DNA from: Pseudomonadota bacterium
GTDB lineage: Bacteria > Pseudomonadota > Alphaproteobacteria > SP197
DNA length: 64,000 bases
Assembly: GCA_039028155.1 (NCBI GenBank)
Contig: JBCCIS010000002.1
Location: 62,001-126,000 of the forward strand
Reading direction: 5' to 3'
The position numbers and the translations under genes are program-made. Numbering within the stretch: the first letter of the stretch is position 1; the number at the start of each line of letters is the position of its first letter. This document shows positions 28,739 through 48,434 of the stretch, one piece after another. Below the pieces are notes generated by a model. It worked only from the letters and a program-made list of their open reading frames with translations. It was not told where the DNA came from and made no database searches.

Positions 28739-28849
28739 AATGCCAGCGATGTCGCGAACGCGCAGCCTCACGAGCCCGACACGGGCGTTTGACGGCGCGC
28801 TATCGCGCGGCCTGCGTATAATGACCATGGCAGGGTTTTGGAGGATCGG

Positions 28850-31976: not shown

Positions 31977-33152
31977 CTACTTGTAGGGATCGGCGGCGTC
32001 GCGCAGGCCGTCGCCCAGGAAGTTGAAGGCGAGCACCACGATAATCACCGGCACCACCGGCAGCATCAGCCACGGGTAGAGCGCGACGACGTTGATGTTC
32101 TGCGCTTCGTTCAGCAGCACGCCCCAACTGGTGATCGGCGGGCGCAGGCCCAGGCCCAGGAACGACAGCGCCGTCTCGCCCAGGATCATGGCCGGGATCG
32201 ACAGCGTGGCGCTGGCGATCAGGTGACTGGTGAAGCTGGGCAGCAGATGCCGGAAGATGACGCGCTTCGGCGTCGCGCCCATCAAGACGGCGGCGGTGGC
32301 GAAATCCTCCTCGCGCAAAGACAGGAGTTTTGAGCGCACGGCGCGCGCCAGGCCTGTCCAGTCGAACAGGCCCAGAATGATGGTGATGCCGAAATAGATC
32401 AGCAGGGGACTCCACGTCACCGGGAGCGCGGCGGATAACGCCATCCACAACGGCAGCTCCGGGAAACTGCGGATGATCTCGATCAGCCGCTGGACCATGG
32501 TGTCGATCCAGCCGCCGTAGTAACCGGACAGGCCGCCCAGGATGACACCCAGCACGAAGCTGATGGTAATGCCGATCAAGCCGACGGTGAGCGAGATGCG
32601 CGCGCCATAGATGATGCGCGACAGCATGTCGCGGCCCAGCCGGTCGGTGCCGAACAGAAACATCTGGCCGTCCTCGGCCGGACAGATGATGTGGAAGCGC
32701 ATGGGAATGGCGCCCCAGAACTCATACTCATCACCCAGGCAGAAGAAGCGGATCGGCTGCACATCGTCGGTGTTGGGCGTGTAGACGCGCTGCAGCGTAT
32801 CCATGTCGAGCTCGTAGTTGAGGCCGTAGACGAAGGGCCCGACGAACTCGCCGTCGTGGAAGAAGTTGACTGCCTGGGGTGGCGCATAGATGAAGTCGGT
32901 GTGGCGTGTCGCCAGATTGTAGGGCGCCAGAATTTCGGAGATTAGGATCGAAATGAAGGTCGCGAGCAGCAGGGCGCCTGAAATCACCGCAAGCTGATGG
33001 CGGCGGAACTTCCACCACATCAGCTTCCACTGGGACGCCATATAGAAGCGTTCCTGTTCCGGCGTCAGCTGCTCGACGGAATAGGGATCGAAGGGTTTGT
33101 CGGAGACAAACCGCTCGATCGTATCGTCGTCCCTGCGGGTCGTGTCGGTCAT
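31977..33152 (-). CDS. Oligopeptide-type ABC transporter permease (DppC/OppC family)
   Basis: A protein of 391 residues. It has an N-terminal cytoplasmic extension, one early membrane segment, a periplasmic loop of about 120 residues, then the permease core with the EAA motif region AAVLMGATPKRVIFRHLLPS that docks on the ATPase. FGTDRLGRDMLSRIIYGARISLTVG is the standard DppC segment. It starts at the stop of the partner permease (TGATG overlap). The long periplasmic insertion recalls YejE-type permeases, but I would not assign that symbol without alignment. It is the last gene of the leftward operon. Confidence 0.9.
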   Translation of the reverse strand: MTDTTRRDDDTIERFVSDKPFDPYSVEQLTPEQERFYMASQWKLMWWKFRRHQLAVISGALLLATFISILISEILAPYNLATRHTDFIYAPPQAVNFFHDGEFVGPFVYGLNYELDMDTLQRVYTPNTDDVQPIRFFCLGDEYEFWGAIPMRFHIICPAEDGQMFLFGTDRLGRDMLSRIIYGARISLTVGLIGITISFVLGVILGGLSGYYGGWIDTMVQRLIEIIRSFPELPLWMALSAALPVTWSPLLIYFGITIILGLFDWTGLARAVRSKLLSLREEDFATAAVLMGATPKRVIFRHLLPSFTSHLIASATLSIPAMILGETALSFLGLGLRPPITSWGVLLNEAQNINVVALYPWLMLPVVPVIIVVLAFNFLGDGLRDAADPYK

Positions 33153-34150
33153 CAGTGACCGGCCCCCCCGGCCAAGCGGATACGCGGATCAAGCACGGCG
33201 AGCAGAAGATCGGAGACCAGAACACCGATTACGGTCAAAAGCGCCAGGCACATCAGGAACGAGCCGGCCAGGTACATGTCTTGGGTCTGCAAAGCGCGCA
33301 ACAGGATCGGGCCGGTGGTCGGCAACGACAACACGACCGAGACGATGACCGCGCCGGAGATAACCTGGGGCAGCAGGTTGCCGATATCGGCGATGAACGG
33401 ATTCAGCGCCATCCTGAGCGGATACTTCAACAACGCCTTGCCCGGCGACAGGCCCTTGGCGCGCGCGGTGACGACGTATTGTTTTTGCAACTCGTCCAGC
33501 AGGTTGGCGCGCAGGCGCCGGATCAGCCCGGCTGTGCCGGAGGTGCCGATGACGACGACCGGGATCCAGAGATGTTCGAGCACGGACAGGAACTTCCCCC
33601 AGCTCCATGGCTGGTCGAGATACTCCGGATCCATCAGGCCGCCGATCGAGGTGCCGAACCAGACATTGGCCAGGAATAAGAGGACCAGCGCCAACAGGAA
33701 GTTCGGCGTCGCCAGGCCCAGAAAGCCGATGAAGGTCAGGCCGTGATCGCCCCAGGAATACTGGTGCGTCGCCGAATAAACACCGATCGGAAACGCGACG
33801 ACCCAGGTGAAGATGATGGTCGCGGCCGACACGATGATGGTCAGCAGCAGGCTTTCGCCGATGACCTGATTGACCGGCTTGTTGTACTCGAAGCTAAGCC
33901 CCAGATCGCCTTGCAGCAGACCACCGACCCAGAACAGGTACTGCTGCCAGACCGGCTTATCCAGGCCGAACTCCTGGCGGTAGATCTCGATCTGATCGGC
34001 ACACGAGCTTTCGCCCTGGGCCTCGCATTCCGCGATCATGGTCGACAGGAAATCGCCCGGCGGCAGCTGAATGATGATGAAGGTGATCAGGCTGATGCCG
34101 ATCAGCGTCGGCACCATGATCAACAGGCGCTGGGCGATGTAGTTGATCAT
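33152..34150 (-). CDS. Oligopeptide-type ABC transporter permease (DppB/OppB family)
   Basis: A protein of 332 residues beginning MINYIAQRLLIMVPTLIGIS, the typical DppB opening, followed by a short periplasmic stretch (DFLSTMIAECEAQGESSCADQ, a Cys pair). The coupling motif is in TARAKGLSPGKALLKYPLRMAL and RRLRANLLDELQKQYV. It forms the transmembrane channel with the downstream permease. It lies 3 bases after the binding-protein gene and overlaps the next permease by 1 base. The inserted Cys-containing loop is unusual but seen in YejB-like proteins. Confidence 0.9.
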   Translation of the reverse strand: MINYIAQRLLIMVPTLIGISLITFIIIQLPPGDFLSTMIAECEAQGESSCADQIEIYRQEFGLDKPVWQQYLFWVGGLLQGDLGLSFEYNKPVNQVIGESLLLTIIVSAATIIFTWVVAFPIGVYSATHQYSWGDHGLTFIGFLGLATPNFLLALVLLFLANVWFGTSIGGLMDPEYLDQPWSWGKFLSVLEHLWIPVVVIGTSGTAGLIRRLRANLLDELQKQYVVTARAKGLSPGKALLKYPLRMALNPFIADIGNLLPQVISGAVIVSVVLSLPTTGPILLRALQTQDMYLAGSFLMCLALLTVIGVLVSDLLLAVLDPRIRLAGGAGH

Positions 34151-34153
34151 GCC

Positions 34154-36061
34154 CTACCGCCCGTTGCTGCCGTCGGTGAACCAGAAAGTCTCGGGTTCAT
34201 AGATGCCGAACTGACTGCCGGGATCCCAGTTGAACATCGCCTCTTCGGGCACGTTGTGCAGCCGGTCGGAGACGACGACCGGCTGGAAGATCCCGGCGAT
34301 CAAGCCGATCGAAAAAACGCCGTCGGCATAGGTTTCCAGAATCTCTTCCCAGATCTGTTCCTGCTCGGCTTCGCTGCCGGCGCCTTGCCACCTGTGCGCC
34401 AGTTCCATCAGCCGTTCGGCATCGGCCATGTCGATGGGCTCGCCGCTGGCGCCGGAGGTCTCGTAGTACTGGCCCCACTTGGGCCACTGCAATAGCTGCT
34501 GGCTGGTCGGCGCGAACTCGGCCGGGGTCATCTTCGGCGTCGGGACACCGTTCTCCAGCCCGAACCAGATCGACATGACGGTCTCGCCGGCGAACACACG
34601 GTTGCGCAAGACCTCGCGCTGCATGGGCTTGGTGAAAAGCTTGATGCCGGCGTCGCGCCAACTGTCGTGGATCAGTTCCAGAATGTCCGACTCCTGGGGG
34701 TCCTCGCCCGCGGTCTCGACGATGATCTGGAGCGGCCTGCCGTCGGGCAACAGCCGGTAGCCCTGACTGTCGCGTTCGGTAAGCCCGATCTCGTCGAGCA
34801 GGCGGTTTGCCTCGGCAAGATCAAAGTTGGCCCATTGGCTGCGATAGGCCTCGTCATAGAGCGGGCTTAGCGGCAGGACCGTGTTGTTGCCCTCGATGCC
34901 GAGGCCATAATAGATGACCTGGTTGATCTCGTGCCGGTTAACGGCGAGCGACAGGGCGCGGCGGAACCGGACATCGCGCAAGAGGTCCCGCCAAACCGGA
35001 TCGTTGACATTCAGGTTCGGATAAAGCGCCAGTTGCGAGCCGCGCACGGTGCGCCACAGGCGAACTTGATAACTGTTGTGGCCTTCGCCTTCTTTCAGGA
35101 ACGTGTAGTCGTTGAACGACAGGCCGCGCGCCTGCAGATCAGACTCGCCTGCCCAGGTCTTCAGCGGTATCAGCTTGCTGTCAACCACGTTCATGATGAC
35201 GCGATCGATGTAGGGCAGCTGGTGGCCGGCCTGATCGACCTTGTGGAAAAAGGGATTGCGCACGCCGATAAAGCGCTGCGCCGGCGCCGCGTTGGTGATC
35301 ATCCACGGCTGCAACGTCGGCAGCTCCGGATTGTCGAACTTGTAGAGATTGTCCATCCCGTTGTGCAGCGACGCCCAGCTTGACTTGCCGGCCTCGTCGA
35401 CCTGGGCGTTAATCCAGTCGATGTCGCCGTAGTCGGGATGGTACTGCTTCATGTATTCGGCAGGCCGGTAGATGAAGAGCGGCGCGGCGCTGGCCAGGGC
35501 TGGCAGAAAGTCGGGATTAGGCTTCGACCACGTGTAGCGCACGGTGAGCTCGTCGATCACCTCGAACACCGGCAGCTCGTCGTCGACGGTCAGGATCTTC
35601 GGCGGGCCGGCGGGCGACAGATCGGGATGGGTGGCGACATCCTGCCACCAGTAACGAAAGTCCTCGGCGGTGAACGGATCGCCGTTCGACCAGTGATGGT
35701 TGGGCCGCAGGTGGAAGGTGAAGATGCGGCCGTCCTCGACCTCGAAGCTCTCCAGGATATCCGGCACGAGCTCAAGGTCGGTGTTGTAGACGATCAGCCG
35801 CGCGTAGCCGAACACGACCAAGAGGCGCGTGTCCTTGACCCGGTTGACCAACATCTGCCAGTCACCGCCATAGGTGCCGACACTGCGCTCGCCGTCCAGG
35901 GTGACGACCAGCGGCGTGTCGGTGACCCGCTCGGCGACCGGCGGCAGGTCGCCGGCCTCGACGGCTTCAGCCCAATAGGGCGGCTCGATCAGGGTCTCGG
36001 CGACCGCCGGTGACACGGCGAACGACACGAGACAGAGAAGGGCGGCCAGGCAGCGGATCAC
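34154..36061 (-). CDS. Periplasmic substrate-binding protein of a peptide-type ABC importer (SBP_bac_5)
   Basis: A 635-residue protein with a Sec signal peptide of about 21 residues (cut after AVA). The family pattern is present: a LVVTLDGERSVGTYGGDW opening, LVPDILESFEVEDGRIFTFHLRPNHHWSNGDPFTAEDF (the cluster-5 signature, split here by position), and ALSLAVNRHEINQVIYYG. Its length of more than 600 residues is larger than DppA and similar to YejA-like proteins that bind larger peptides or peptide conjugates. GTG start 36061 overlaps the ATPase stop. In this operon, next to glycan genes, the ligand might be a muropeptide or glycopeptide; this is inference. Confidence 0.88.
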   Translation of the reverse strand: MIRCLAALLCLVSFAVSPAVAETLIEPPYWAEAVEAGDLPPVAERVTDTPLVVTLDGERSVGTYGGDWQMLVNRVKDTRLLVVFGYARLIVYNTDLELVPDILESFEVEDGRIFTFHLRPNHHWSNGDPFTAEDFRYWWQDVATHPDLSPAGPPKILTVDDELPVFEVIDELTVRYTWSKPNPDFLPALASAAPLFIYRPAEYMKQYHPDYGDIDWINAQVDEAGKSSWASLHNGMDNLYKFDNPELPTLQPWMITNAAPAQRFIGVRNPFFHKVDQAGHQLPYIDRVIMNVVDSKLIPLKTWAGESDLQARGLSFNDYTFLKEGEGHNSYQVRLWRTVRGSQLALYPNLNVNDPVWRDLLRDVRFRRALSLAVNRHEINQVIYYGLGIEGNNTVLPLSPLYDEAYRSQWANFDLAEANRLLDEIGLTERDSQGYRLLPDGRPLQIIVETAGEDPQESDILELIHDSWRDAGIKLFTKPMQREVLRNRVFAGETVMSIWFGLENGVPTPKMTPAEFAPTSQQLLQWPKWGQYYETSGASGEPIDMADAERLMELAHRWQGAGSEAEQEQIWEEILETYADGVFSIGLIAGIFQPVVVSDRLHNVPEEAMFNWDPGSQFGIYEPETFWFTDGSNGR

Positions 36062-37938
36062 GCGGCAAGCTCCGCGGCATTCGGCGCGCGGCTGGCGCGC
36101 ACCAGATGACCGTTGCCCAGATCGATCATGTCGAGCTTGGCATCGGGTGAGACGGTGAACGGCTCCGGCCAGGCGTCAGGTTTGCTGGCGCGCCCGGCCA
36201 TCAGCGCTGTCAGGTTCAGTTTGTGATCGGGATCGGGTTTTGGCACGGCGGCCAGAAGCGCGCGGGTGTAGGGGTGCACGGGGTTCTCGAAGAGCTCGCG
36301 CCGGTCCGCCTGTTCGACCAGCCGGCCAGCGCACATCACGGCGATGCGGTCAGCCATGTAGTCGATCACCGCCAGATTGTGCGAAATGAAGAGGTAGGTC
36401 AGGCCCAGTTCGTCCTGCAGGTCCTTCAACAGATTCAGGATCTGCGCTTGGATCGACACATCCAGTGCCGACACGGGCTCGTCGCAGATCAGAAGATCCG
36501 GCTCCAGCGCCAGCGCGCGCGCGATCCCGATGCGCTGCCGCTGCCCGCCGGAAAAACTGTGCGGATAACGGCGCAGATGGCGTACGTCCAGGCCGACCAG
36601 GCGCATCAGCTCCATCACCCGGTCCGCGCGTTCCTGACCGCTGCAGACATTATGGATCATCAGTGGTTCGGAGATGATATCCATGACGGTCATGCGCGGG
36701 TTCAACGACCCAAAGGGATCCTGGAAGATGAACTGAACGTCGCGTCGGAAGTCGAAGAGAGCGGGTCCGGACAACGTCCGGATGTCGATCTCGCTGCCAC
36801 GATTGTTATAGATCAGTTCACCGCTGTCGGGCGTCAGCGCCTTCATGATCATCTTGCTGGTGGTCGTCTTGCCGCAGCCGGACTCGCCGACCAGCCCCAG
36901 GCATTCGCCGCGGCGTACATCGAAGCTGATGTCGTCGACCGCCAGATGATCGATCTTCTTGCCGCCCAACCATTCCGACTTGCGGATGCTGAAGGTCTTG
37001 GTCAGGTGACGCACCTTCAACAGAGGCCGGTCATCGTTCTCCGGCCAGGGTTTGCGATGTTGATGGCGTTCGGCGTGCGCATGCTTGACCTCGCGCAGCG
37101 GCACCAGGCGTTCGCCCGGCTTCATGTCAAAGCGCGGCACGGCCCGTAAGAGGGCCTTGAGGTAGGGGTGCTCTGCGTGGCGGAAAATGTCGTCCAGCGA
37201 GCCCTTCTCCATCACTTCGCCGTGGTACATGACGACCACTTCCTCGGCGACGTTCGCCACAACGCCCAGATCATGGGTGATCATCAGGACCGCCATGCCG
37301 AGTTCGTCCTGCAGATCGTCCAACAGTTTCAAAATCTGCGCCTGGATCGTGACATCCAAAGCCGTGGTCGGCTCGTCGGCGACCAGGAGCGCGGGCCGGC
37401 ACACCAGGGCCATGGCGATCATGGCGCGTTGGCGCAGTCCGCCGGAGAGTTCGAATGGGTAGCTGCGCCACGCCTTCTCGGCATCGGGAAAACCGACCAG
37501 ACGCAGCATCGATATGGTCAGCTCCTTGCCTTCCTGGCGATCGCAGTTGCGATGGAGATGCAGGGCCTCGGAGACCTGGTCGCCGACCGTGTGGAGCGGC
37601 GACAGCGAGGTCATCGGCTCCTGGAAGATGATCGAGATGCGGCCGCCGCGAATACCGCGCATGCGTTTGCCGTCGGGTGGCAGGGCGGCGATGTCGGTGA
37701 CCTGGCCGTCCAAGTTCGGGTCATTGAACAGGATCTGTCCGCGGGTGATGTGGGCGTTCTGCGGCAGGATGCGCATGATCGCCTGCGAGATCACCGTCTT
37801 GCCGGAACCGGACTCGCCGACCAGCGCCAGGGTCCGGCCCTGTCGGATGGTGAAGCTGGCGCCGCGGACCGCTTGGACTCGGCCATCGCCGACCTCGAAC
37901 TCGATTCCCAGGTTAAGGATGTCGACCAGGCTGTTCAC
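36058..37938 (-). CDS. Fused dual ATP-binding subunit of a peptide-type ABC importer
   Basis: A protein of 626 residues made of two complete nucleotide-binding domains. The first has Walker A GESGSGKT, signature [12 protein letters not shown] and Walker [13 protein letters not shown]. The second has [24 protein letters not shown] and [12 protein letters not shown]. Each is followed by an oligopeptide_HTH-type C-terminal region ([24 protein letters not shown]). The GTG at 37938 is chosen as start: it overlaps the upstream stop (GTGA), and the 65 codons above it belong to the previous gene's shadow. It powers the permease pair downstream in the same operon. Confidence 0.93.
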
Positions 37939-38441
37939 AGGTGGTCGTCCGGCAAGCCGTGGGGATCGGGTGTCAGGCCCAGGGCGTCGAAGTTCGCGCG
38001 CGTGACCTCCGACAGGGTCAGCCGTCGCGCTGTGGCGGCCTGTAGCGCGGCGCTGGCAATCGTATCGAAATCGCTGATCGATGAATCGACGCCGAGCTTC
38101 TTCGCACCGTCCTTGACGGTCAGGTGCATCCAACCTCGCTGTCGATCTCGCCGGGTGGAGTAGTAAGCGAGCTTCATACTGTTCAAGTCATCCCACGACA
38201 CAGATTTCCCGGCAGGACCTCTGGCACGGATCCCGTCCTCGGAAACTTCAATGGTGGTCATCTGACGGATCAGGGTTCTGATCCCGAAGACCGCAAATAC
38301 GCCCCCCAGCGCACCAAGGATGTAAACCATGATGGGCGCGGCCTCAACGATCAACAGTGGCCCCCAGGTCAGGAGCACGCCGGCGCCGGATCGGATGTAA
38401 TCGCCTGTCAACACACTGGTTTCGTAGTGATGCTCGCTCAT
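37935..38441 (-). CDS. Membrane protein of unknown function with PH-like C-terminal half
   Basis: A protein of 168 residues from ATG 38441. Two hydrophobic segments (AGVLLTWGPLLIVEAAPIMVYILGALGGVFAVFG, one reading) form a hairpin. The cytoplasmic part has short strands (TIEVSEDGIRARGPAGKSVSWDDLNSMKL) that resemble a small PH-like beta domain. I do not recognise a named family. It overlaps the deacetylase-like gene before it and the ATPase gene after it by 4 bases on each side, so it belongs to this operon and bridges the glycan and importer halves. Confidence 0.7.
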   Translation of the reverse strand: MSEHHYETSVLTGDYIRSGAGVLLTWGPLLIVEAAPIMVYILGALGGVFAVFGIRTLIRQMTTIEVSEDGIRARGPAGKSVSWDDLNSMKLAYYSTRRDRQRGWMHLTVKDGAKKLGVDSSISDFDTIASAALQAATARRLTLSEVTRANFDALGLTPDPHGLPDDHL

Positions 38442-39202
38442 GCCGCCTCCTGGCGCGCGCCAAACAGGCTGCGCGCGTCCAGCCAATGGCCGGCTTCGTG
38501 GTCCTTGATGGCCGTGACAAAACGGTCGACAAAGTGCTCGCAGGCGGCGTCGTGGTCACGGTGGTGGGTCATCAGCCCGGTTGGCTCCAGGGCGTCGGCC
38601 TGGCCGGTCCGGCGGGCCTGCAGGTGGCTGATGGCTTGCGCCAGCGCCACCGTATCGCCGCAGAAGGCGCGGGCGCGCCAATCGATGATGTCGATGTGAA
38701 CATTGACCGTGTGAACGCGGGCTTCGGGCGTTGCTGCACGCGGGCCGTGTGTGCTGAGGCCTGAATACCCCAATGTCGCGAGCCGCGTCTCGATCTTGGG
38801 TCCGATTCGGTTCCACGGCGGTACCATGACCAGCTGAAACTGCCCGTCAAAGGCCTCCTGCAGCGTCTCACGGCCCCTCTGGAGGTCCTTTTCGAGGTTT
38901 TCTGTCCCATCGACCAGCTCGGTCTTTTTGGCCGGTGGCCGGGCGTTGTTGCGGTGCGCCCAGCCGTGCTGCAGCACGCTTGTGCCGGAATCGGCCCGTA
39001 CCCGCCGAATGGTCGGCGCGGCAAGCCACGCCGGTACCGTAGCGAGCGCCAGGGGCGCCTCAAGCCGCCGCCGTTGATCCAGGAAGTCCTTCAGCCGCTC
39101 ATCATCGGAACCAGCGTCGTCGTCGCGCCACCAGAATGTCGCGCGTTGGTCTGCCCTAGCCCAGCGATCGAGTTCCGTGGTCAGGTCGGTCCAATCAGCC
39201 AC
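38438..39202 (-). CDS. Polysaccharide deacetylase-like (NodB-fold) protein
   Basis: A protein of 254 residues with a GTG start. It begins with a WWRDDDAGSDD acidic pair (NodB motif 1), has LQHGWAHRN (motif 2, HxxxH-like with the two metal His residues), then MVPPWNRI (motif 3). This is the divergent deacetylase branch often found beside glycosyltransferases. Members remove N- or O-acetyl groups from glycans. No signal peptide is evident, so it probably acts on a cytoplasmic precursor. It overlaps both neighbours in the operon. Confidence 0.85.
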   Translation of the reverse strand: MADWTDLTTELDRWARADQRATFWWRDDDAGSDDERLKDFLDQRRRLEAPLALATVPAWLAAPTIRRVRADSGTSVLQHGWAHRNNARPPAKKTELVDGTENLEKDLQRGRETLQEAFDGQFQLVMVPPWNRIGPKIETRLATLGYSGLSTHGPRAATPEARVHTVNVHIDIIDWRARAFCGDTVALAQAISHLQARRTGQADALEPTGLMTHHRDHDAACEHFVDRFVTAIKDHEAGHWLDARSLFGARQEAA

Positions 39203-40340
39203 GGCTGGCCCACTCGGTTATCAACGCGGCACTCTTGGCGGCGCCGTCCAGATCAAAACCGGCGGGGTCCGGCGGCGCACCGGCCAAGGCGTCATCGACC
39301 GCTGCGGCCAACCGTTCAGGCGACAGCGCCGCTTCTTCAACCATGATGGCCACTCCCAGATCGGCAAGCCGCTCTGCCCGGTCCCGTTGTTCTGTTTCGC
39401 CGCCACGCGCGAAGGGCACGAGAACCGAGCGCGCGCCGGCAGCCAGGATGTCGACGGCCGTATTATAGCCGGCCTGAGAGACGGAGACAGCGCAGTTGGC
39501 CAACAGCGCGGCAAAATCGGGCCGCGCTTCCTCGACGACGACACCGGACGGCGGATCGGTCAGGCGCGACGCCAGGTCGCCGGCCATAAGATCGTGGCCG
39601 ACCAGAAGCCGCCACACCCGATTGCCAGCCGCCGCTGCGGCGGCCCTGGCGTCGAGCGCGGCGGCCAGCAGCGGCGCGCCGGTCGCACCGCCACCGACCG
39701 AGACAATGATCTCGCCATCACCCGGTCCGCCCGCTTCGCGCCGCGCGGTTTTCCCGGCGATGTAGCCGGTGTAGCGGAGACGTTCGCCCAGCTGTCCGGC
39801 CAGCGGAAAAGTGAGGTCAAAGGGGACCAGGCGGGGGTCGCCGTGCACCATGACGTGGTCGATGTGTCTGAGGGCCAGGGCCAGCATCTCCTCATAGCGG
39901 CCGGGCTTTGTTTGACGTTGCAGGATGTCGCGCACCGAGACGGCGGTCGTTGCGCCTCCGGCGCGCGCCCGCTCGATCAGCGCCAGGGCTTCGTCGCGCA
40001 GCTGGCGGCGGCCGAACGGAAACGTCTCAGTGATCAAGAGATCAGGCTTGGTTGTCTCCATCAGGGCGCGTGCTTCATCGCGGCGCGTGTCCAAGTCACG
40101 CGGCGTTGCCGCGTCGCCGGAAGCCAGCGCCAGGCCCGAGAAGCTCTCGTCGATCGCGCGCAGCGGCGTCAGCTGCACCAGCCGGGCCGCGCCAAGGTCC
40201 AGATGGGGTACCGGCATGCCGCCGGAAAGCAGGGTGACATCCAACCCCTGGGCCGCCGTCGCCCGCGCTATCGCGGCGCTGCGGCGCAGATGACCGGTGC
40301 CGAGCAGGTGCTGGACCCAAAGGACGACGCGGCCGGTCAA
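39195..40340 (-). CDS. MurG-like glycosyltransferase (GT28-type C-terminal domain)
   Basis: A protein of 381 residues, apparently TTG start (TTGA overlap with the phosphatase stop). It opens VVLWVQHLLGTGHLRRSAAIA, a GxGHxxR motif as in MurG and MGDG synthases. Its C-terminal domain carries the donor-binding region SVSQAGYNTAVDILAAGARSVLVPF (S-x-GGxNT-like). It probably transfers a sugar from a nucleotide donor. A related protein, with the same SxGLGHLRR opening, is encoded first in the operon at 43287-44546. Confidence 0.88.
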   Translation of the reverse strand: MTGRVVLWVQHLLGTGHLRRSAAIARATAAQGLDVTLLSGGMPVPHLDLGAARLVQLTPLRAIDESFSGLALASGDAATPRDLDTRRDEARALMETTKPDLLITETFPFGRRQLRDEALALIERARAGGATTAVSVRDILQRQTKPGRYEEMLALALRHIDHVMVHGDPRLVPFDLTFPLAGQLGERLRYTGYIAGKTARREAGGPGDGEIIVSVGGGATGAPLLAAALDARAAAAAAGNRVWRLLVGHDLMAGDLASRLTDPPSGVVVEEARPDFAALLANCAVSVSQAGYNTAVDILAAGARSVLVPFARGGETEQRDRAERLADLGVAIMVEEAALSPERLAAAVDDALAGAPPDPAGFDLDGAAKSAALITEWASRG

Positions 40341-40927
40341 GGGCCGTCCAGGCTCAAGTCGGAGCGCTCCAGCCTCGGTCGTCCGAATTCATCGAGCGCC
40401 AGCAGAAGTATGGCGCTGCGGCCAAGCTTCACGGGCGGTTTGTCCAGAAAATCCCAACCGGTCGCCAAGCCGATTGCCGCGCGCTGCACGCCGCGATGGG
40501 TGATGGCGCCGATATCGGCACCGGCTTCGGCGATATCCTTCAGCCAGGCGCCCAGCCTTCGCTGCACCTCGCGCGGTGTCTCGCCGCCGGATGGGCGAAA
40601 GTCGAGGCCGAGCGCTTCATTCTCGGCCATCGCCGCGCCGTGCTCGGCGCGCAAATCGGCCAAGCTGCGGCCGGCCCAGTGTCCCCAATCCATCTCGTCC
40701 AGACGTGGCTCGGTGGTCAGCGGTTCGAGCCCCATATGGCGCGCGGTGTCGCGGGTGCGGCTGAGTGTGCTGGTGACCCATGGCATGCCGGTCAAGGTTT
40801 CCGGCACACGCCAGGAACGGGCGAGGGCAATGCCCGCCTTCGACAACGCGGTGTCGCTGCGTCCCTGGATCAGTTTTTCGTCATTCCAGGTCGTCGGGGC
40901 GTGGCGGATCAAGGCGACGAGGGTCAT
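40337..40927 (-). CDS. Histidine phosphatase family protein (phosphoglycerate-mutase-like)
   Basis: A protein of 196 residues. The catalytic phospho-His is in LIRHAPTTWN and the second His in GAITHRGVQRAA, with Arg in STLSRTRDTA and an acid in DEMDWGHWAG. The alternative TTG two codons earlier is less likely, because the ATG at 40927 gives the ATGA overlap with the preceding glycosyltransferase. Within a glycan operon it may remove phosphate from a sugar phosphate or lipid-linked intermediate, as GmhB/CobC-type enzymes do elsewhere; this is inference. Confidence 0.9.
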   Translation of the reverse strand: MTLVALIRHAPTTWNDEKLIQGRSDTALSKAGIALARSWRVPETLTGMPWVTSTLSRTRDTARHMGLEPLTTEPRLDEMDWGHWAGRSLADLRAEHGAAMAENEALGLDFRPSGGETPREVQRRLGAWLKDIAEAGADIGAITHRGVQRAAIGLATGWDFLDKPPVKLGRSAILLLALDEFGRPRLERSDLSLDGP

Positions 40928-42039
40928 GAACAACTGACCTTATCGATGACGTGCGACAGGATCGTGCCGGCGCTTTCCAGGCTGTGATCGCGGCGTACGG
41001 TCGCGGTCGCCAGGGATGCCATCGCGGACCGGCGTTCCGTATCCGCGATCAGGCCAGCCATCGCATCGGCAAAGGCCTGATCGTCGCCCGGCGTGGTCAA
41101 GATGCCGGTCGCGCCGTCTGAGACGACCTCCGGCACGCCCCGCTCGCGTCCGGCAACGACCGGCACGCCGGCGGCCTGGGCTGACAAGAGCGCCATGCCA
41201 TAGGCTTCGTTAACCGCCGGCCAGACGAACAGATCGGCCGCCGCATAGTGGAGCGGCAGCGATCGCTCCGGCAGCGCACCGACGAACATCGCGCGGCCCG
41301 CGAACAAGGCCTCGACCTCGGCGCGGCATGATCCGTCGCCAACGATCAGCAGGCTCCAATCGTCGTCCTTCAGCAGGTCGACAGCCGCCGCAAGCCGCCT
41401 GTAACTGGCAAGCTTGTCGCCCGGCCGCATCATGGCGACAGCCAATAGCCAGGTCTTGCGCGGATCAAGACCGTAGCGTCGCGCCAACTCGCGCCGCGCG
41501 GCCTTGTGCCGCTGCACGTCGAAGGGCCGGATGTCGAGAAACGGTGGCAGGCGATGACAACGTGCGGGATCGATCTCGATATCGGCCAACCCCGCCTCGT
41601 CCTCCGGCGTCATGGTGTAGAGGCCGTCGGCGCGGCGCAAGGCGGCGGCGGCAACCGCAAAGCCCAGCGACCACGGTCCATTCTGTTGCTTCATCGCGAC
41701 CGAGGGTTCGGCGACCAGGTAGGGCACGCCGAAGGCGTCGGCGATGCGCGGCCCCAGATAGTCCGGTGCCTTGTGATAGAGGTGATAGGTGAACCACAGG
41801 TCGGGCGGCGCATCACGCCAATCGGCAATCAGGCCCTGAGCACGCGCGGCGCCACGCTTGGCGAGACTCAACTGGCGCCGGTGGTCACCGGTGCCGTCAT
41901 AGGCGCGAAAGGATGAGGCCAGAAAGACATCGTGCCCCTGTTGTTTGAGGGCGCGGATCAGCAGGCGCGCCACCGCCCGGTCACCCGACGGCACGCGATG
42001 GGTCGGCGATTTCATCGGGGCGTAAAAGGCGATGCGCAT
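40924..42039 (-). CDS. Glycosyltransferase family 4 protein
   Basis: A GT-B fold protein of 371 residues. The N-terminal Rossmann part opens MRIAFYAPMKSPTHRVPSGDR with the acceptor loop. The C-terminal domain has LLAVAMMRPGDKLASYRRL, LLIVGDGSCRAEVEAL and the E-x7-E-type motif NEAYGMALLSAQAAGVPVVA with donor-binding glutamate. It lies 9 bp after the next glycosyltransferase upstream and overlaps the phosphatase downstream. Donor and acceptor sugars are unknown. Confidence 0.92.
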   Translation of the reverse strand: MRIAFYAPMKSPTHRVPSGDRAVARLLIRALKQQGHDVFLASSFRAYDGTGDHRRQLSLAKRGAARAQGLIADWRDAPPDLWFTYHLYHKAPDYLGPRIADAFGVPYLVAEPSVAMKQQNGPWSLGFAVAAAALRRADGLYTMTPEDEAGLADIEIDPARCHRLPPFLDIRPFDVQRHKAARRELARRYGLDPRKTWLLAVAMMRPGDKLASYRRLAAAVDLLKDDDWSLLIVGDGSCRAEVEALFAGRAMFVGALPERSLPLHYAAADLFVWPAVNEAYGMALLSAQAAGVPVVAGRERGVPEVVSDGATGILTTPGDDQAFADAMAGLIADTERRSAMASLATATVRRDHSLESAGTILSHVIDKVSCS

Positions 42040-42048
42040 GGCGCGATC

Positions 42049-43290
42049 CTACCGATCCAGACCAAAGCGGACAGCCAGATCGTCGATGCCGCGTTCCATC
42101 GCGAAGTCATGAAGTACCCGTTCGCGGCCGGCGTCCCCCATGCGTCGCCGCATCGCGGGATCGCTGATCAAACGCGCCAACGACGCGGCCAGCGCCGCGG
42201 GATCGCCGGGTGGGTTCAAGATCCCATTGACACCGTCGCTGATCAGTTCGGGTACCGCCGAGACAGCGGTCGTGACAATGGCGAGCCCCTGGCTCTGCGC
42301 CTCCATCATCACGTTGGGCAGCCCGTCACGGTCACCGTCGGCGGCGATCTTTGGCGCCAGGACGAACATATCGGCGTCCTGGTAGGCGCGCCGGACGGCG
42401 TCTTGCGCCTGGGCGCCATGCCAGGTGATGCGGTCTTGAAGACCACTCTGCTCGGCCTGGTGTTTGAGCTTGTCGCGCAGCGGTCCGCCGCCGATGTGAT
42501 CGAGGTGCCAGGCAAGATCCTTCGGCAGTTGGGCCAGTGCGGCCAACAGGTCGTCGTAACCCTTCTTCTCGACCGCCCGTCCGACCGACACCAAGCGGAC
42601 GGGATCGGCGGTATCGGTTCCGTCACGCATACCGTTGCGGTCCCCCGGTTCCGGCCAGCGTGTGAGGTCAAGCCCGTGATAGACCAGCGCCACCTTGTCG
42701 GGATCGGGCGCCAGGTTTCGCAGATGATCGCAGTTCGCCGCGGTGCAGGTGACCAGCCAGCCGCAGTCGTTAAGCTTCTCGCTGATCTCCCAGTCGGGGC
42801 TCGTGTAGATATCCTTGGCGTGCGCCGAGCAGGTCCAGGGCAGACTGGTCATCATGGCGGCGTAGCGCGCGACCGAAGCGGGCGTATGCAGAAAGTGGGC
42901 ATGCAGGTGACTGACCCCTGGCGCGACCTCGGCGGCGACGACGCATGCCTGGCCAAAGCGCCGGATCCGGTTCGGTGTCCTGTCGCGCCGGAGGTCACGG
43001 ATCCAGGTGCGGAACGCCCGGCGGTACCCGGGCAGGCGTCGCGCCCTCAGCCAAGCCGCGAAAACCCGCCGCGGTTCCTGATAGAGGTATTCGGGCAGGT
43101 AGGTGACGGGCGCGCTGATCTCGTCATGCACCGGATGGGTGCTGGTGTCGGTCGGATGACGCAGCGACACGATCTCGATATCGAGGCCGCGCTGCTCCAG
43201 CGCCAGGATCTCCTGGGCGATAAACGTCTCGCTGAGCCTGGGGTAGCCCTTCAGCAAAAAGGCAACTCGGCCGTTGCCGGCACCACTCAC
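42049..43290 (-). CDS. Glycosyltransferase family 4 protein (exopolysaccharide type)
   Basis: A protein of 413 residues. It begins VAFLLKGYPRLSETFIAQEI, the common N-terminus of GT4 enzymes in exopolysaccharide clusters, followed by HLHAHFLHTPASVARY and the C-terminal donor domain: LVSVGRAVEKKGYDDLL, HIGGGPLRDKLKH and GLPNVMMEAQSQGLAIVTTAVSAVPEL. The GLPNVMMEA glutamate corresponds to the E-x7-E position. GTG start with GTGA overlap to the upstream gene. It probably elongates a lipid-linked or protein-linked glycan at the inner membrane. Confidence 0.92.
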   Translation of the reverse strand: MSGAGNGRVAFLLKGYPRLSETFIAQEILALEQRGLDIEIVSLRHPTDTSTHPVHDEISAPVTYLPEYLYQEPRRVFAAWLRARRLPGYRRAFRTWIRDLRRDRTPNRIRRFGQACVVAAEVAPGVSHLHAHFLHTPASVARYAAMMTSLPWTCSAHAKDIYTSPDWEISEKLNDCGWLVTCTAANCDHLRNLAPDPDKVALVYHGLDLTRWPEPGDRNGMRDGTDTADPVRLVSVGRAVEKKGYDDLLAALAQLPKDLAWHLDHIGGGPLRDKLKHQAEQSGLQDRITWHGAQAQDAVRRAYQDADMFVLAPKIAADGDRDGLPNVMMEAQSQGLAIVTTAVSAVPELISDGVNGILNPPGDPAALAASLARLISDPAMRRRMGDAGRERVLHDFAMERGIDDLAVRFGLDR

Positions 43291-44546
43291 GAAACGGCGC
43301 TGTCCTGTGCGACGGTCAGTTTGCGCTGGCGCGCGACATTGGTCTTGCGCGCAGCGTGCCGGCCCTCGGCCAGGTGCATCTTGACCAGGCGGTTGACGTT
43401 CTCCAGCCCGTCGAGCAGGCCCGGAACGACGACCTTGCTGGGGCGGCGCTGCTGCGTCAGCTGCCGCATGGCGGTCGCCATGACCGACGGGTTTTCGGCA
43501 CTGTCCTCGGTCAGCATGGAAACCAGGCCCAGCTCCTGCGCGCGCGAGGCGCGGATCAGCTGCTCGCGGCGCGGCACCTGTCGCGGCACGATCAGCGCCG
43601 GTTTGTCGAACGACAGGATCTCGCAGAACGTGTTGTAGCCACCCATGGCAACGACACCGGAGGCTTGCGCCATCAGCGTCTCCAGATGAGCGTCAAAGGT
43701 AATCGCCGTGACGTTATCCAGCTTGTCGACGCGGTCCTGGAAGTCCGACTTCAGCTCCGGCTGCATGAAGGGACCAAAGACGATCAGCGCGTGGGTCGGC
43801 GGCGCCATCTCACTCTCGTAGGCCTTCAGCACCCAATCGACCAGTTGGTCGCCGTCGCCACCGCCGCCGGTGGTGACCAGGATGAATGGCTCCTCGACAC
43901 CGTCGGGCAGGCCAGGGTCGGGCAGCGCCTGGGGCACCGAGCGTTCGAGATAGCCGGTATAGACCATCTTGTGACGCACCGATTGCGGGACGCTGAGGTG
44001 TTCCAGGGGATCGTGGATCTGGGGCAGGCCATAGACCCAGATCTCGTCGTAGATATCACGCAGTGCCGGCATGGCGCCTTTGCGCTCCCATTCCGGCGCC
44101 AGCAGGGTGGCATCGTCCATGACGTCGCGCAGGCCCAGAATCAGCTTTGTGCCGCGCGCCTTCAGCATCTCCATCGTCTCTTTGACCTCGCCGCGCAGGC
44201 CCAGCGGTTCCTTGTCGACCAGCAGGATGTCGGGATCGAAGATATCGGCGGTGTGCTTGATGATCGATGCGCGCATCGCCATGGTCTGCTCGGTGTCGAG
44301 CAGCAGGTTCAGCGCCGTGTACTCGCCATTGCGCAGCTTAATGACACCGGGCACGCGCACGAAGTCGACGCGGGCGCGGAAGTCGAAGCTGCCGATGATG
44401 GGCGAGCCTGAGAGGATCAAGACCGTCAGGTTGTCGATATCGCCGACCATCGCGTGGGCCAGCGCGCGGCAACGCCGCAGATGACCGAGACCAAAGCTGT
44501 CGTGACTATAGATCAGGACACGCGGCCTGTTGGCTGCCCTCGTCAT
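43287..44546 (-). CDS. MurG-like glycosyltransferase, first gene of the glycan/importer operon
   Basis: A protein of 419 residues from ATG 44546 (the open frame continues 19 codons upstream without a ribosome site). It starts RVLIYSHDSFGLGHLRRCRALA, again a GLGHLRR acceptor motif. The C-terminal donor half has FILVTTGGGGDGDQLVDW and GVVAMGGYNTFCEILSFDKPALIVPR, the MurG-type GGxNT donor loop. It diverges from the 901-residue ABC exporter gene 201 bp away, so both units are probably controlled from the shared spacer. Confidence 0.9.
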   Translation of the reverse strand: MTRAANRPRVLIYSHDSFGLGHLRRCRALAHAMVGDIDNLTVLILSGSPIIGSFDFRARVDFVRVPGVIKLRNGEYTALNLLLDTEQTMAMRASIIKHTADIFDPDILLVDKEPLGLRGEVKETMEMLKARGTKLILGLRDVMDDATLLAPEWERKGAMPALRDIYDEIWVYGLPQIHDPLEHLSVPQSVRHKMVYTGYLERSVPQALPDPGLPDGVEEPFILVTTGGGGDGDQLVDWVLKAYESEMAPPTHALIVFGPFMQPELKSDFQDRVDKLDNVTAITFDAHLETLMAQASGVVAMGGYNTFCEILSFDKPALIVPRQVPRREQLIRASRAQELGLVSMLTEDSAENPSVMATAMRQLTQQRRPSKVVVPGLLDGLENVNRLVKMHLAEGRHAARKTNVARQRKLTVAQDSAVS

Positions 44547-44747
44547 GGCGCCTCCCGAATCACCCCATCCCCAGTTGCGTGGAACTATGGCACAGGGGGG
44601 CAAGCGCCGAAAAGCCTGAGATTTGACCGGCTTGCGGCCCCGAGGACGTGGCGTTGGGAACCCGTTTACCGGCCCACGTCGCTTCTATAGTCTTTCTGGC
44701 CGCCAAATATGGCCAAATTGGGGGGCAAGGCCGCTTAGTGCCGTTTC
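44547..44747. promoter_or_regulatory. Shared divergent control region of glycan operon and exporter
   Basis: A spacer of 201 bp between divergent genes, without a gene. A TTGACC (44622-44627) and other AT-richer stretches occur, but I cannot define a promoter pair with confidence. Its position suggests coordinated expression of the two units. Confidence 0.45.
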
Positions 44748-47453
44748 ATGGAACGTACAATTTACAAGTTCATCTTTCGCTATTCGAAGCGGCAACAGAT
44801 TTTCATTCTGTGTTTCACGCTGCTTTCGCTGCCGTTTTATTATGCCTCGCTCGATATCCCCAAGTTAATCGTCAACAACGTCCTTACCGATATTCCCGAA
44901 TACGTGCCAGTCGACATGCGGGAAGCGGCAACGGCGGAGTCGGTGCCGCGTTATCTGGAGGTCATGGGCATCCAGCTCGGCGATGTCGACCGGTTGCACC
45001 TGCTGGCGGTCTATTGCGGCCTCTTCCTGTTCCTGGTGCTCGTCAACGGCGGCTTCAAGTGGTTCATCAACGTCTATAAGGGCCTCCTTGGCGAGCGCAT
45101 GCTGCGCCGCCTGCGTTATCAGCTCTTCAGCCGCGTCTTGCGCTTCCCGCTGCCCCATTTCCGCCGGGTCGGTTCGGGCGAGATCATTCCGATGATCACC
45201 CAGGAGGTCGAGCCATTGGGCGGCTTTATCGGTGATTCGATCGCCCTGCCGCTCTATCAGGGCGGCCTTTTGATCACCGCGCTGGTCTTCATCTTCATGC
45301 AGGACCCCTGGATGGGCGCGGCGGCCATCTCGCTCTATCCGATCCAGGGCTGGATCATTCCGAAGCTGCAGCGCCAGGTGAACCTGCTCGGCAAGGCGCG
45401 GGTGAAGGAGGTGCGCAAGCTCTCCGAGCGCATCTCCGAGACCGTCCAGTCGAGCCAGGAGATGCATGCCAACGATACCATGCGTTTCGAGCTGGCCGAC
45501 TTCGCGTGGCGCATGCAGCGCATCTTCGAGATCCGCTACGACATCTTCAGGAAGAAGTTCTTCATCAAGTTCCTGAACAACTTCCTGGCCCAGCTGACGC
45601 CGTTCTTCTTTTACGCGGTCGGCGGCTATCTGGTGATTCAGGGCGATCTGTCGTTGGGCGGCCTGGTCGCGGTTCTGGCAGCCTACAAGGACCTGCAGCC
45701 GCCATGGAAAGAGCTGTTGAACTTCTATCAGATCAAGGAAGATTCGAAGATCAAGTACGACCAGGTCGTCACCCAGTTCGCGCCGCCCGGCATGCGCGAC
45801 GAAGACATCGTTTTCGGCAACGACCATCAGGTCAAACCGTTCACCCAGGGGCTTTCCGCCAGCAATCTGCAATACGCCGAAGACGGTGATTCGATCATCG
45901 ATGGGCTGACGCTTGAGGTCGGCGCCACCAGCCACATCGCCATCGTCGGCGACGCCTCAAGCGGCAAGACGGAAACCGCGCTCTTGTTGGCGCACCTGAT
46001 CGACAGCACCGGTGGCACCTTGCGCGTGAGCGGCGAGGATGCCACGCATTTGCCTGAGGCCTCGACCGGCCAGCGGGTCGGCTTTGTCGGCGGCTCGACC
46101 CATCTGATCTCCGCCAGCCTGGCTGATAACCTGCTCTATGGCCTTAAGCACGCCGAACTCGCGCCGCGCGAGCCCGACGATCCCGATGAGAAACGTGCGA
46201 TGGCGCGCTCTAAGGCAGAGGCCGAGCGCACCGGCAACACCACCGAAGACCGTCATGGCGAGTGGATCGACTATGCGGCGGCCGGCGTCAGCGATGCCCA
46301 AGGCTTGAACCAGGCGGTGCTGCGCGCGCTCGAGGTCGCCGACATGACCGAGGATGTCTATGGCCTTGGCTTGCGCGGGACGCTTGACCCGGAAGCACGC
46401 CCGGAAGCAGCCGAGATGCTGCTGGAGGCGCGCCGTATGCTGCAGCAGCGCCTGGACGATCCGGCTTATCGCGGCCTGGTCGAGCCGTTCGACGCCCTGA
46501 AGTACAACACCAACGCGACGTTGGCCGAAAACCTGCTGTTCGGCACGCCGGTCGGTGACGCGTTCGATCTGGAGCGCCTGGCCGAGAACCCCTATGTCAT
46601 GGAGACGCTGGGCAAGGTCGGGCTGGAAGACGAGCTGCTCGACATGGGTTTCGAAGTCGCCCAGACCATGATCGAGCTGTTCGCCGATCTGCCGCCCGAG
46701 CACGAGTTTTTCGCCCAGTTCGCCTTCATCTCGCTCGACGATCTGCCGGACTATCAGGCGATCGTGCGGCGCGCCGAACGCGATGGCGTCAAGGCGCTGG
46801 AAGGCGACGAGCGGCTGAAGCTCTTGTCGCTGCCGTTCAAGCTGATTCCGTCACGTCATCGCCTGGGCCTGATCGACGACGACATCCAGTCGCGCATCCT
46901 CAAAGCCCGCGCGCTGTTCGCCGAGAACCTGCCGGACGACCTGAAGGGCTCGGTCGAGTTCTTCGAGCGCACGCTCTACAACGCCGCGTCCTCGCTGCAG
47001 GACAACATCCTGTTCGGCAAGCTCGCCTATGGCCGCGCCCAGGCGCAGACCAAGGTCGGCGAGCTGATGTCCGAGGTGATCGCCCAACTTAACCTCAGAC
47101 CGACGGTCATCGAGGTCGGGCTCGACTTTGAGGTCGGCGTCGGCGGCTCGCGGCTGTCGCCGGCCCAGCGCCAGAAGGTCGCGATTGCGCGCGCGATCCT
47201 GAAACGCCCGGACATCATGATTCTATCCGAAGCCACCGCCGCGTTGGACGGCGCCGCCCAAAGCACCATATTGAGAAACATTCGCAAGGAGTGCGAGGGC
47301 CGGGCGTTGATCTGGATCCTGCACCGGCCAAGCCAGGCGCGCGAATTCGACCAGGTTGTCGTCATGAAGGGCGGCAAGATCGTCGAGAGAGGTCGTTTTG
47401 AGGATCTGGCCGAGGGCCAGTCAACCTTGGCCGACCTGATGGCGGCTGAATGA
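44748..47453 (+). CDS. ABC exporter with an interrupted nucleotide-binding domain
   Basis: The product has 901 residues. The first about 340 form a type-1 exporter membrane domain: hydrophobic stretches at 18-36 and 85-103, then GLLGERMLRRLRYQLFSRVLRFP and the intracellular-loop segment GSGEIIPMITQEVEPLGGFIGD. The ATPase domain has Walker A GDASSGKT near 401-408, but the signature LSPAQRQKVAIARA is near 803, about 400 residues later instead of about 100. The insertion contains three related segments: SASLADNLLYG (about 456), ATLAENLLFG (about 590) and SSLQDNILFG (about 748). Walker B reads IMILSEATAALD, with Ser for the usual Asp but the catalytic Glu kept. The H-loop His is in ILHRPSQ. I infer export of a glycan-linked molecule. 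Confidence 0.88.
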   Translation: MERTIYKFIFRYSKRQQIFILCFTLLSLPFYYASLDIPKLIVNNVLTDIPEYVPVDMREAATAESVPRYLEVMGIQLGDVDRLHLLAVYCGLFLFLVLVNGGFKWFINVYKGLLGERMLRRLRYQLFSRVLRFPLPHFRRVGSGEIIPMITQEVEPLGGFIGDSIALPLYQGGLLITALVFIFMQDPWMGAAAISLYPIQGWIIPKLQRQVNLLGKARVKEVRKLSERISETVQSSQEMHANDTMRFELADFAWRMQRIFEIRYDIFRKKFFIKFLNNFLAQLTPFFFYAVGGYLVIQGDLSLGGLVAVLAAYKDLQPPWKELLNFYQIKEDSKIKYDQVVTQFAPPGMRDEDIVFGNDHQVKPFTQGLSASNLQYAEDGDSIIDGLTLEVGATSHIAIVGDASSGKTETALLLAHLIDSTGGTLRVSGEDATHLPEASTGQRVGFVGGSTHLISASLADNLLYGLKHAELAPREPDDPDEKRAMARSKAEAERTGNTTEDRHGEWIDYAAAGVSDAQGLNQAVLRALEVADMTEDVYGLGLRGTLDPEARPEAAEMLLEARRMLQQRLDDPAYRGLVEPFDALKYNTNATLAENLLFGTPVGDAFDLERLAENPYVMETLGKVGLEDELLDMGFEVAQTMIELFADLPPEHEFFAQFAFISLDDLPDYQAIVRRAERDGVKALEGDERLKLLSLPFKLIPSRHRLGLIDDDIQSRILKARALFAENLPDDLKGSVEFFERTLYNAASSLQDNILFGKLAYGRAQAQTKVGELMSEVIAQLNLRPTVIEVGLDFEVGVGGSRLSPAQRQKVAIARAILKRPDIMILSEATAALDGAAQSTILRNIRKECEGRALIWILHRPSQAREFDQVVVMKGGKIVERGRFEDLAEGQSTLADLMAAE

Positions 47454-47478: not shown

Positions 47479-47934
47479 ATGAGTCTTCAGCAAGATGTCG
47501 ATCTGCTGCGCAACATCCCGTTGTTCGCCAAGATCGAGCCGAGCAAACTCAAGCTCCTGGCCTTTACCGCCGAACGCCTGAGCTTCACGTCCGGCGACGT
47601 GCTCTGCCACCAAGGCGAGCAGGGCGATTCAGCCTATATCATCATCGACGGCGAAGCCGACGTCATCGTCGATACCGAAACCGGCCCGGTCACCGTCGCG
47701 ACGCTGAAGACGAACGACTTCCTGGGCGAAACGGCGATCCTGTGCGATGTGCCGCGTACCGCGACGGTCAAGGCGAAGTCGGACCTGACGGCGCTGATGA
47801 TTTCGAAGGATCTGTTCTTCCAGCTGGTGACCCAGTTCCCATCGATGTCAATCGAGATCATGCGTGAGCTGGCGCGCCGCGTCGAACGCACGACCGCGCA
47901 ACTGCGCGAAGCCGTCTCGCAACAAAAACACTAG
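47479..47934 (+). CDS. Cyclic-nucleotide-binding domain protein
   Basis: A single CRP-type beta-barrel domain of 151 residues. It has SFTSGDVLCHQGEQGDSAYIIIDGEADV (glycine-rich strands) and the phosphate-binding cassette FLGETAILCDVPRTATV, in which Glu and Arg are the residues that hold cNMP. There is no DNA-binding domain after the barrel, only a C-terminal helix (MSIEIMRELARRVERTTAQLREA). It could therefore act as a regulatory partner of the exporter encoded 25 bp upstream. A cyclase is present elsewhere in the window. Confidence 0.9.
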   Translation: MSLQQDVDLLRNIPLFAKIEPSKLKLLAFTAERLSFTSGDVLCHQGEQGDSAYIIIDGEADVIVDTETGPVTVATLKTNDFLGETAILCDVPRTATVKAKSDLTALMISKDLFFQLVTQFPSMSIEIMRELARRVERTTAQLREAVSQQKH

Positions 47935-47948
47935 ATCGACCGACATCG

Positions 47949-48434
47949 ATGAGTCGTCTCGATAGCGCAATCCGCCGCCTTGAAGCCCAGCGCACCTGTT
48001 TGGAAACCGCCGCTGCCATGATCGCGGAAGTACCAGGACCTGTCCTGGAGTTCGGTCTGGGCAATGGGCGCACGTTTGATCACCTGCGGCAGATTCTGCC
48101 GGACCGCGAGATCTTCGAGTTCGACCGCCAGGTAGCCGCGCATCCCGACTGCATTCCCGACGACGATCACATGATCCTCGGCGATTTCCGCGACACCGTG
48201 CCGCAGGCGCTTGAGCGCGTTGGCGCGCCCGCGGCGATGATCCACTTCGATATCGGCTCCGGTGACGCGGCGGCCAACGCTGAACTGGCGTCGTGGATGG
48301 CCGGCGCGACGAAAGACCTGCTCGCCACGAACGGCGTCGCATTGGCCGATCAGGAACTCATCGGATCGCCGTGGCGGACGCTTGCTCTGCCCGATGGCGT
48401 GGCGCCCGGGCGCTACTTCATGTACCGGGCCTGA
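47949..48434 (+). CDS. Small class I SAM-dependent methyltransferase (Methyltransf_17-like)
   Basis: A protein of 161 residues. The SAM motif is PVLEFGLGNGRTFDHLRQI, with EIFEFDRQVAAHPDC for the second strand and AAMIHFDIGSGDAAANAELASW for motif IV. Its length and the LEFGLGNGRTFDHLR pattern match a small family of alphaproteobacterial methyltransferases, Methyltransf_17 as I recall it. It follows the cyclic-nucleotide-binding gene by 14 bp. It converges with the enoyl-CoA hydratase-like gene 9 bp away. The substrate is unknown. Confidence 0.82.
   Translation: MSRLDSAIRRLEAQRTCLETAAAMIAEVPGPVLEFGLGNGRTFDHLRQILPDREIFEFDRQVAAHPDCIPDDDHMILGDFRDTVPQALERVGAPAAMIHFDIGSGDAAANAELASWMAGATKDLLATNGVALADQELIGSPWRTLALPDGVAPGRYFMYRA

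Follow-up and report, generated by a model that had tools for sequence, protein, structure and literature searches.

The question raised by this locus is how an ABC exporter whose ATPase domain is split by a long insertion, and whose catalytic motifs are partly lost, could work. The gene lies in the window (the whole stretch of DNA analysed, 64,000 nucleotides), and its features and neighbours are listed in Table 1. Its frame was open, uninterrupted and unambiguous. The product was matched in Pfam by ABC_membrane (PF00664, 70.2 bits, cut-off 28, 3e-19) and by ABC_tran (PF00005, 53.7 bits, cut-off 25, 4e-14, with the ATPase split), giving a membrane domain followed by an ABC ATPase in one chain, as in a half-exporter. 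The NCBIfam model of the MsbA lipid A exporter (TIGR02203) scored 183.8 bits against a cut-off of 602. The N-terminal C39 peptidase of HetC/PCAT was absent, Pfam returning the two ABC domains only. The product is an MsbA-like half-exporter carrying a triplicated piece of its ATPase domain, and it is probably a homodimer.

Table 1. Positions of the exporter gene, its motifs and the surrounding genes in the window.
Feature	Position	Strand	Evidence or remark
Half-exporter gene, 901 aa; membrane domain and ATPase domain with triplicated segment	44748..47453	+	Pfam, AF2
Transmembrane domain, residues 1-345, exporter fold	44748..45782	+	PF00664; structural match to exporters, Z ~29-30
Walker A GDASSGKT, residues 401-408, intact	45948..45971	+	sequence
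Copy 1 of the post-Q-loop segment, residues 444-465, VGFVGGSTHLISASLADNLLYG; lacks the Q-loop Gln	46077..46142	+	
Insertion part R1, residues 468-577; helices after copy 1, terminal helix LLEARRMLQQRL	46149..46478	+	
Copy 2, residues 578-599, VEPFDALKYNTNATLAENLLFG	46479..46544	+	
Insertion part R2, residues 600-735	46545..46952	+	
Copy 3, residues 736-757, VEFFERTLYNAASSLQDNILFG	46953..47018	+	
Signature LSPAQRQK, residues 803-810, 46 residues past copy 3	47154..47177	+	
Walker B / D-loop ILSEATAALD, residues 825-834; Ser for Asp, catalytic Glu kept	47220..47249	+	
H-loop region LHRPS, residues 858-862; His kept	47319..47333	+	
Cyclic-nucleotide-binding protein, 151 aa; phosphate-binding cassette FLGETAILCDVPRTATV intact	47479..47934	+	PF00027 3e-20
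Methyltransf_17 gene	47949..48434	+	PF12692 1.9e-53; third gene in 8/31 loci
Divergent glycosyltransferase-run genes, including histidine phosphatase	39195..44561	-	Pfam
GT28-like gene	43287-44561	-	Pfam
GT4 gene	42049-43290	-	Pfam
GT4 gene	40924-42039	-	Pfam
Histidine phosphatase gene	40337-40933	-	Pfam
GT28-like gene	39195-40340	-	Pfam
Conserved gene of the glycosyltransferase run	38438..39202	-	synteny 16/31
Peptide-type ABC importer: fused two-ATPase protein, binding protein, two permeases	31977..38133	-	ORFs
Class III nucleotide cyclase-like gene (adenylate/guanylate)	28838..30223	+	homologue in 8/31 loci

Between Lys407 of Walker A and Leu803 of the signature lay 396 residues; the Walker A to signature distance was 104-106 in nine ordinary exporters that the genome also encodes, and it is about 100 in type I half-exporters generally. 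The insertion is ~290 residues long. GC3 was 0.84, 0.85 and 0.83 in the membrane domain, the insertion and the C-terminal part of the ATPase. The canonical catalytic set was incomplete: the Q-loop glutamine was missing (VGFVGGST), the signature read LSPAQ and Walker B had Ser-Glu, so that the Q-loop Gln and the Walker B Asp, the Mg ligands besides the Walker A Thr, were both lost. Walker A Lys and Thr, the Glu and the H-loop His were all kept, and the protein may therefore bind ATP and perhaps split it slowly. Since its sequence lacks the full canonical set, it was classed as an exporter-derived variant; it is no new transporter class. A preliminary description of the DNA had put Walker A and the signature about 400 residues apart where about 100 is typical, had noted the Ser of Walker B and the LSPAQ signature, and had held the frame to be continuous, the codon use normal and the gene unbroken. 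All of this agreed with the measurements given here.

An AlphaFold2 model of the protein (22-sequence alignment) had a mean pLDDT of 83, with the ATPase domain and insertion at ~90 and some membrane helices poor. The model had an exporter fold, matching TmrAB, MsbA, Sav1866, IrtAB and Atm1-like exporters with Z ~29-30, and 238 of 239 residues of the ComA ATPase domain superposed on it at 1.6 Å. The ATPase fold is thus predicted to be intact around a compact insertion. The insertion folded alone (residues 466-762) gave a pLDDT of 93 and a pTM of 0.80. An inserted known domain is unlikely as its origin: Pfam found no domain in it, a PDB sequence search gave nothing better than E 0.67, and Foldseek with the isolated insertion returned no significant match (best E 0.46). 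In a second-look structural alignment the best 4 of 671 chains were ABC exporters, with AtAtm3 at Z 4.3 and IrtA at ~3.9, in a weak range (Z 3.8-4.3 over 71-75 residues). All four placed residues 584 to ~727 on the same 71-75-residue stretch. We read this stretch as the helical subdomain, a weak structural match that agrees with the sequence comparisons.

Those comparisons centred on three segments, SASLADNLLYG (copy 1), ATLAENLLFG (copy 2) and SSLQDNILFG (copy 3). Single-sequence Smith-Waterman alignment with 1000 shuffles gave z = 12 for copies 2/3, 6.0 for 1/3 and 5.6 for 1/2. With hhalign the family profiles of the same pairs matched at E = 1.9e-18, 3e-7 and 1.6e-6, and control segments from the membrane domain stayed below 1% probability. 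Aligned with ordinary exporters, each copy fell in register on the segment after the Q-loop (E = 6e-14, 2.6e-5 and 6e-6). The repeat unit was longer than the 11-residue motif: copies 2 and 3 had ~45 residues in common, with the consensus LEAR..L...L....VE.F....YN..A.L..N.LFG, and the helices following the three copies were also related (H1/H3 3.5e-7, H1/H2 1.4e-6, H2/H3 4e-5). The distance from the Walker A Lys to copy 1 was 60 residues and that from copy 3 to the signature 46, and similar distances were found on both sides when ordinary exporters were aligned to the copies; the extra material thus sits inside the helical subdomain. The Q-loop glutamine was missing from all three copies of the window protein.

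The extra material is made of repeats of the entry segment of the helical subdomain and not of complete ATPases. Three full degenerate ATPases were excluded, as the insertion held no second Walker A or Walker B and its parts R1 and R2 were only about 132 and 158 residues long. The preliminary description had proposed an ATPase domain interrupted by an insertion with three related post-Q-loop-like segments and had named three independent degenerate ATPase repeats as the contrary outcome. Its proposal is borne out by the alignments and by the modelled fold, and only the Q-loop/helical part was repeated. The inserted helix LEARxxL was also considered as a copy of the signature helix with a Walker B strand; a weak structural alignment of the isolated insertion pointed that way, and sequence support was absent (hhalign probability below 1%). 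The repeated motif is equivalent to the CFTR segment ENIIFG (TIKENIIFG) that holds the cystic-fibrosis residue F508. In exporters the F508-type segment touches the coupling helix of the other half.

Homologues with the same insertion, which the preliminary description had suggested seeking, were numerous. Full-length relatives were found in 29 of 61 sampled genomes, and all 15 genomes of the window's family and genus carried the exporter, in G013 as two pieces. Across the phylum 31 of 398 genomes had it, all of the window's own class, as did roughly a third of 289 alphaproteobacterial genomes. Named hosts included Rhizobium, Sinorhizobium, Ensifer, Phyllobacterium and Azospirillum, where it lay on plasmids or chromids. 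The spacing 60/131/158/46 varied little in nearly all of 47 aligned relatives, down to 32% identity, and four residues, N595 and F598 in copy 2 and N753 and G757 in copy 3, were invariant in all 39 non-redundant relatives. The insertion is under purifying selection, with a dN/dS of 0.05 beside 0.04 for the membrane domain. No other gene of the family was found in the window genome.

Identity with S. meliloti MsbA2 was excluded by position: msbA2 (SMb21191) lies in an operon near 938 kb of pSymB (PMC3687685), and the homologue of the window gene lies near 843 kb (pSymB, strain 2011). The latter may be SMb20813, which has been termed the msbA homologue (PMC10945364). Several relatives departed from the common form. 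One full-length member (L047, JAJEAD010000019.1) came from a MAG labelled Gammaproteobacteria; as the other sampled matches were from Alphaproteobacteria, this is put down to a misnamed bin or to transfer. Another (L155:346-4503(+)), a candidate fusion, belonged to a 1386-codon open frame in which the usual start is preceded by a long N-terminal extension. In four highly eroded members (L070, L071, L072, L075) R1 was shortened to 85-87 residues between copies 1 and 2; L070, the one of the four that was scanned, had no recognisable ABC_membrane domain but intact copies 2 and 3.

ABC transporters are ATP-driven machines, and no part of them is better conserved than the Walker and H-loop residues. 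In this family the usual pattern is reversed: those residues drift or vanish and the three copies of the coupling segment are fixed. Among the 39 non-redundant relatives the Walker A Lys was kept in 18, the Ser/Thr after it in 5, the Walker B Asp in 10, the Walker B Glu in 20, the H-loop His in 13 and the Q-loop Gln in 5. On a tree of the membrane domain only, the changes numbered 10 for Lys, 7 for Asp, 8 for Glu and 6 for His. Erosion was not universal, several lineages retaining Lys, Glu and His. The homologues of the nodule bacteria R. etli (ACE93383.1) and S. meliloti (WKL29738.1) lacked the Walker A Lys, the Walker B Asp/Glu and the His, and kept all three copies. In relatives without the Walker A Lys, dN/dS was mostly 0.06-0.28 by region (highest 0.36), a constraint that marks them as working genes. 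The preliminary description had suggested that the insertion, or perhaps the cNMP protein, may regulate the ATPase domain. Many relatives have lost their ATPase residues, so the insertion cannot in general serve to regulate hydrolysis, and the picture of a regulated ATPase falls short of what the family shows.

When the membrane domain was used as the query, the closest relatives outside the family were intact ORFs of 313-413 residues without an ATPase. They grouped with the family in a tree (support 99), away from ordinary exporters; the tree was not clean, in that the very divergent members L070-L072 fell elsewhere on long branches. A class-wide search found these membrane-only relatives in 23 genomes, all 23 of which had a full-length member, a count that ignores kinship among the genomes and in which one full-length member is a contig-edge fragment. 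They occurred one or two per genome (L132:4542-5780(-) and L133-L146, e.g. L134:4412-5353(-)), and their intracellular loops look shortened.

The gene for the cyclic-nucleotide-binding (CNBD) protein starts 25 bases downstream of the exporter gene. Its PF00027 domain has the phosphate-binding Glu and Arg (GET...PRTAT), and nucleotide binding is predicted. A CNBD match was present in 29 of 31 loci examined, with the pocket GE..L..RTAT retained in most. The domain was fused to the C-terminus of the exporter in L059, L060 and L077 (by Pfam) and in L156-L158 (visible in the sequence). The link between exporter and CNBD is strongly supported by gene order and by direct fusion in several lineages.

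Other neighbours were less constant; all counts over the 31 loci are limited by flank lengths. Each gene of the glycosyltransferase run was syntenic in 15-22 loci, and glycosyltransferase genes were absent or elsewhere in about a third. The conserved gene at the end of the run had no Pfam, NCBIfam or PADLOC match and is presumably polysaccharide-deacetylase-like. The fused-ATPase importer gene was found near 20 of the 31 loci, and in many Alphaproteobacteria a peptide importer with a fused double ATPase again lies next to the exporter/glycosyltransferase locus; by resemblance we take the window's importer to be YejABEF-like. The R. etli homologue of the cyclase gene is annotated as adenylate cyclase (cyaA), and the gene order there is cyaA-importer-redA-redB-glycosyltransferase-exporter-CNBD. 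A defence system was rejected, as PADLOC over the locus gave generic ATPase or CNBD matches only.

The explanation that we favour, at about an even chance, is a cyclic-nucleotide-linked half-exporter that transports a product of the neighbouring glycosyltransferase genes across the inner membrane, with the coupling platform as the part that is maintained. Going by gene position, the likeliest substrate is a glycoconjugate that the enzymes encoded nearby produce. In exporters the Q-loop/helical-subdomain segment is where the coupling helices of the membrane domain dock; the two extra copies with their helices would make up a compact platform that presumably faces the cytosol and would be the maintained and functional part of the ATPase domain. 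Such a platform could connect the membrane domain with the nucleotide site and with the CNBD protein, whether neighbouring or fused, and relay the conformational signal among them. The state of the transporter would then be set by ATP binding, or in eroded members with no ATP at all, rather than by fast hydrolysis. We infer that hydrolysis is weak or dispensable while the triplicated coupling platform stays.

Four other explanations were weighed against this half-exporter. The protein could be an ordinary ATP-hydrolysing exporter of glycoconjugates or peptides, its insertion a lineage-specific docking module for the CNBD subunit and its degenerate motifs tolerated. The Walker A Lys, catalytic Glu and His are kept in the window protein and its close relatives, one degenerate site is still compatible with transport (PMC7756269), and no other neighbour is as constant as the CNBD protein. 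However, the window protein has neither Mg ligand besides the Walker A Thr, and the Rhizobium/Sinorhizobium members lack the Walker A Lys, Walker B Asp/Glu and His in a would-be homodimer, so this reading is credible but doubtful. It is unlikely that the protein has ceased to be a pump, as in the exporter-derived CFTR and SUR, and now serves as a sensor, a scramblase or a channel gated by nucleotide, with cyclic nucleotide acting as the switch via the CNBD and the triplicate platform. Catalytic residues lost several times in genes that stay under purifying selection, the intact cyclic-nucleotide pocket and a sister group whose proteins consist of just the membrane domain would suit it, but the lineages that keep Lys, Glu and His do not, and the gene remains beside biosynthetic genes, as befits a transporter.

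Very improbably, the eroded members are heterodimers with a competent half-exporter encoded elsewhere, like TmrAB or TM287/288. Heterodimeric exporters of which one site is degenerate are common (PMC7756269), and the membrane-only paralogues are restricted to genomes with a full-length member; yet no second half-exporter gene was found among the mapped genes of the loci, the window genome has no other gene of the family, and a membrane-only partner would supply no ATPase. An assembly or frame artefact, for which the odd spacing alone speaks, has practically no chance: it is refuted by the continuous frame, the unchanged GC3, the dN/dS values given above and the presence of the same insertion in dozens of independent genomes.

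The protein was compared with known systems. It has the membrane-domain and ATPase folds of MsbA/Sav1866-type half-exporters; unlike them it has a 290-residue insertion, two extra post-Q-loop copies and a linked CNBD, and lacks the Q-loop Gln and Walker B Asp. The UvrA and SMC/Rad50 ATPases likewise have large insertions in the interval from Walker A to the signature; they are soluble DNA-repair or structural proteins, unlike this exporter, and their insertions are not known to be helical-subdomain repeats. CFTR/SUR (ABCC) provide a comparison of working principle only, being exporter-derived with a degenerate site and an added regulatory segment; they differ in belonging to another subfamily, in being full-length transporters and in having a phosphorylation-controlled R region instead of a triplicated subdomain segment. 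The tie between exporter and CNBD is shared with HetC and other CNBD-containing peptidase exporters: HetC combines a CNBD at its N-terminus with a C39 peptidase and needs its ATPase residue, and its CNBD binds ppGpp and is required for function (PMC10986499). Unlike HetC, the present family has no peptidase, its CNBD is separate or C-terminal, and its ATPase residues are often lost. Functional exporters in which Walker B and the signature carry substitutions are also known, namely TM287/288, TmrAB and ABCC (PMC7756269). Those transporters keep one canonical site, whereas here both would be degenerate in a homodimer, completely so in some members, and the helical subdomain segment is triplicated.

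Exporters tied to a CNBD (HetC, PMC10986499) and exporters with degenerate sites (PMC7756269) are thus already known, each on its own. A search of the openly accessible literature gave nothing relevant on exporters with such an insertion or on redA/redB with a CNBD. The insertion-exporter family is widespread in Alphaproteobacteria and apparently undescribed, and the combination of a triplicated segment and conserved coupling with lost catalysis appears, as far as found, to be new.

A bolder form of the favoured reading, put forward tentatively, is that the power source has been swapped: the F508-type triplicate platform and the cyclic-nucleotide sensor would set the membrane domain, hydrolysis would be dispensable or lost, and the sister lineage would have discarded the ATPase. 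The family may include an ABC protein that a second messenger drives. Which parts of an ATPase domain serve coupling and which serve fuel is a long-standing question that these proteins make testable in Sinorhizobium meliloti and Rhizobium etli.
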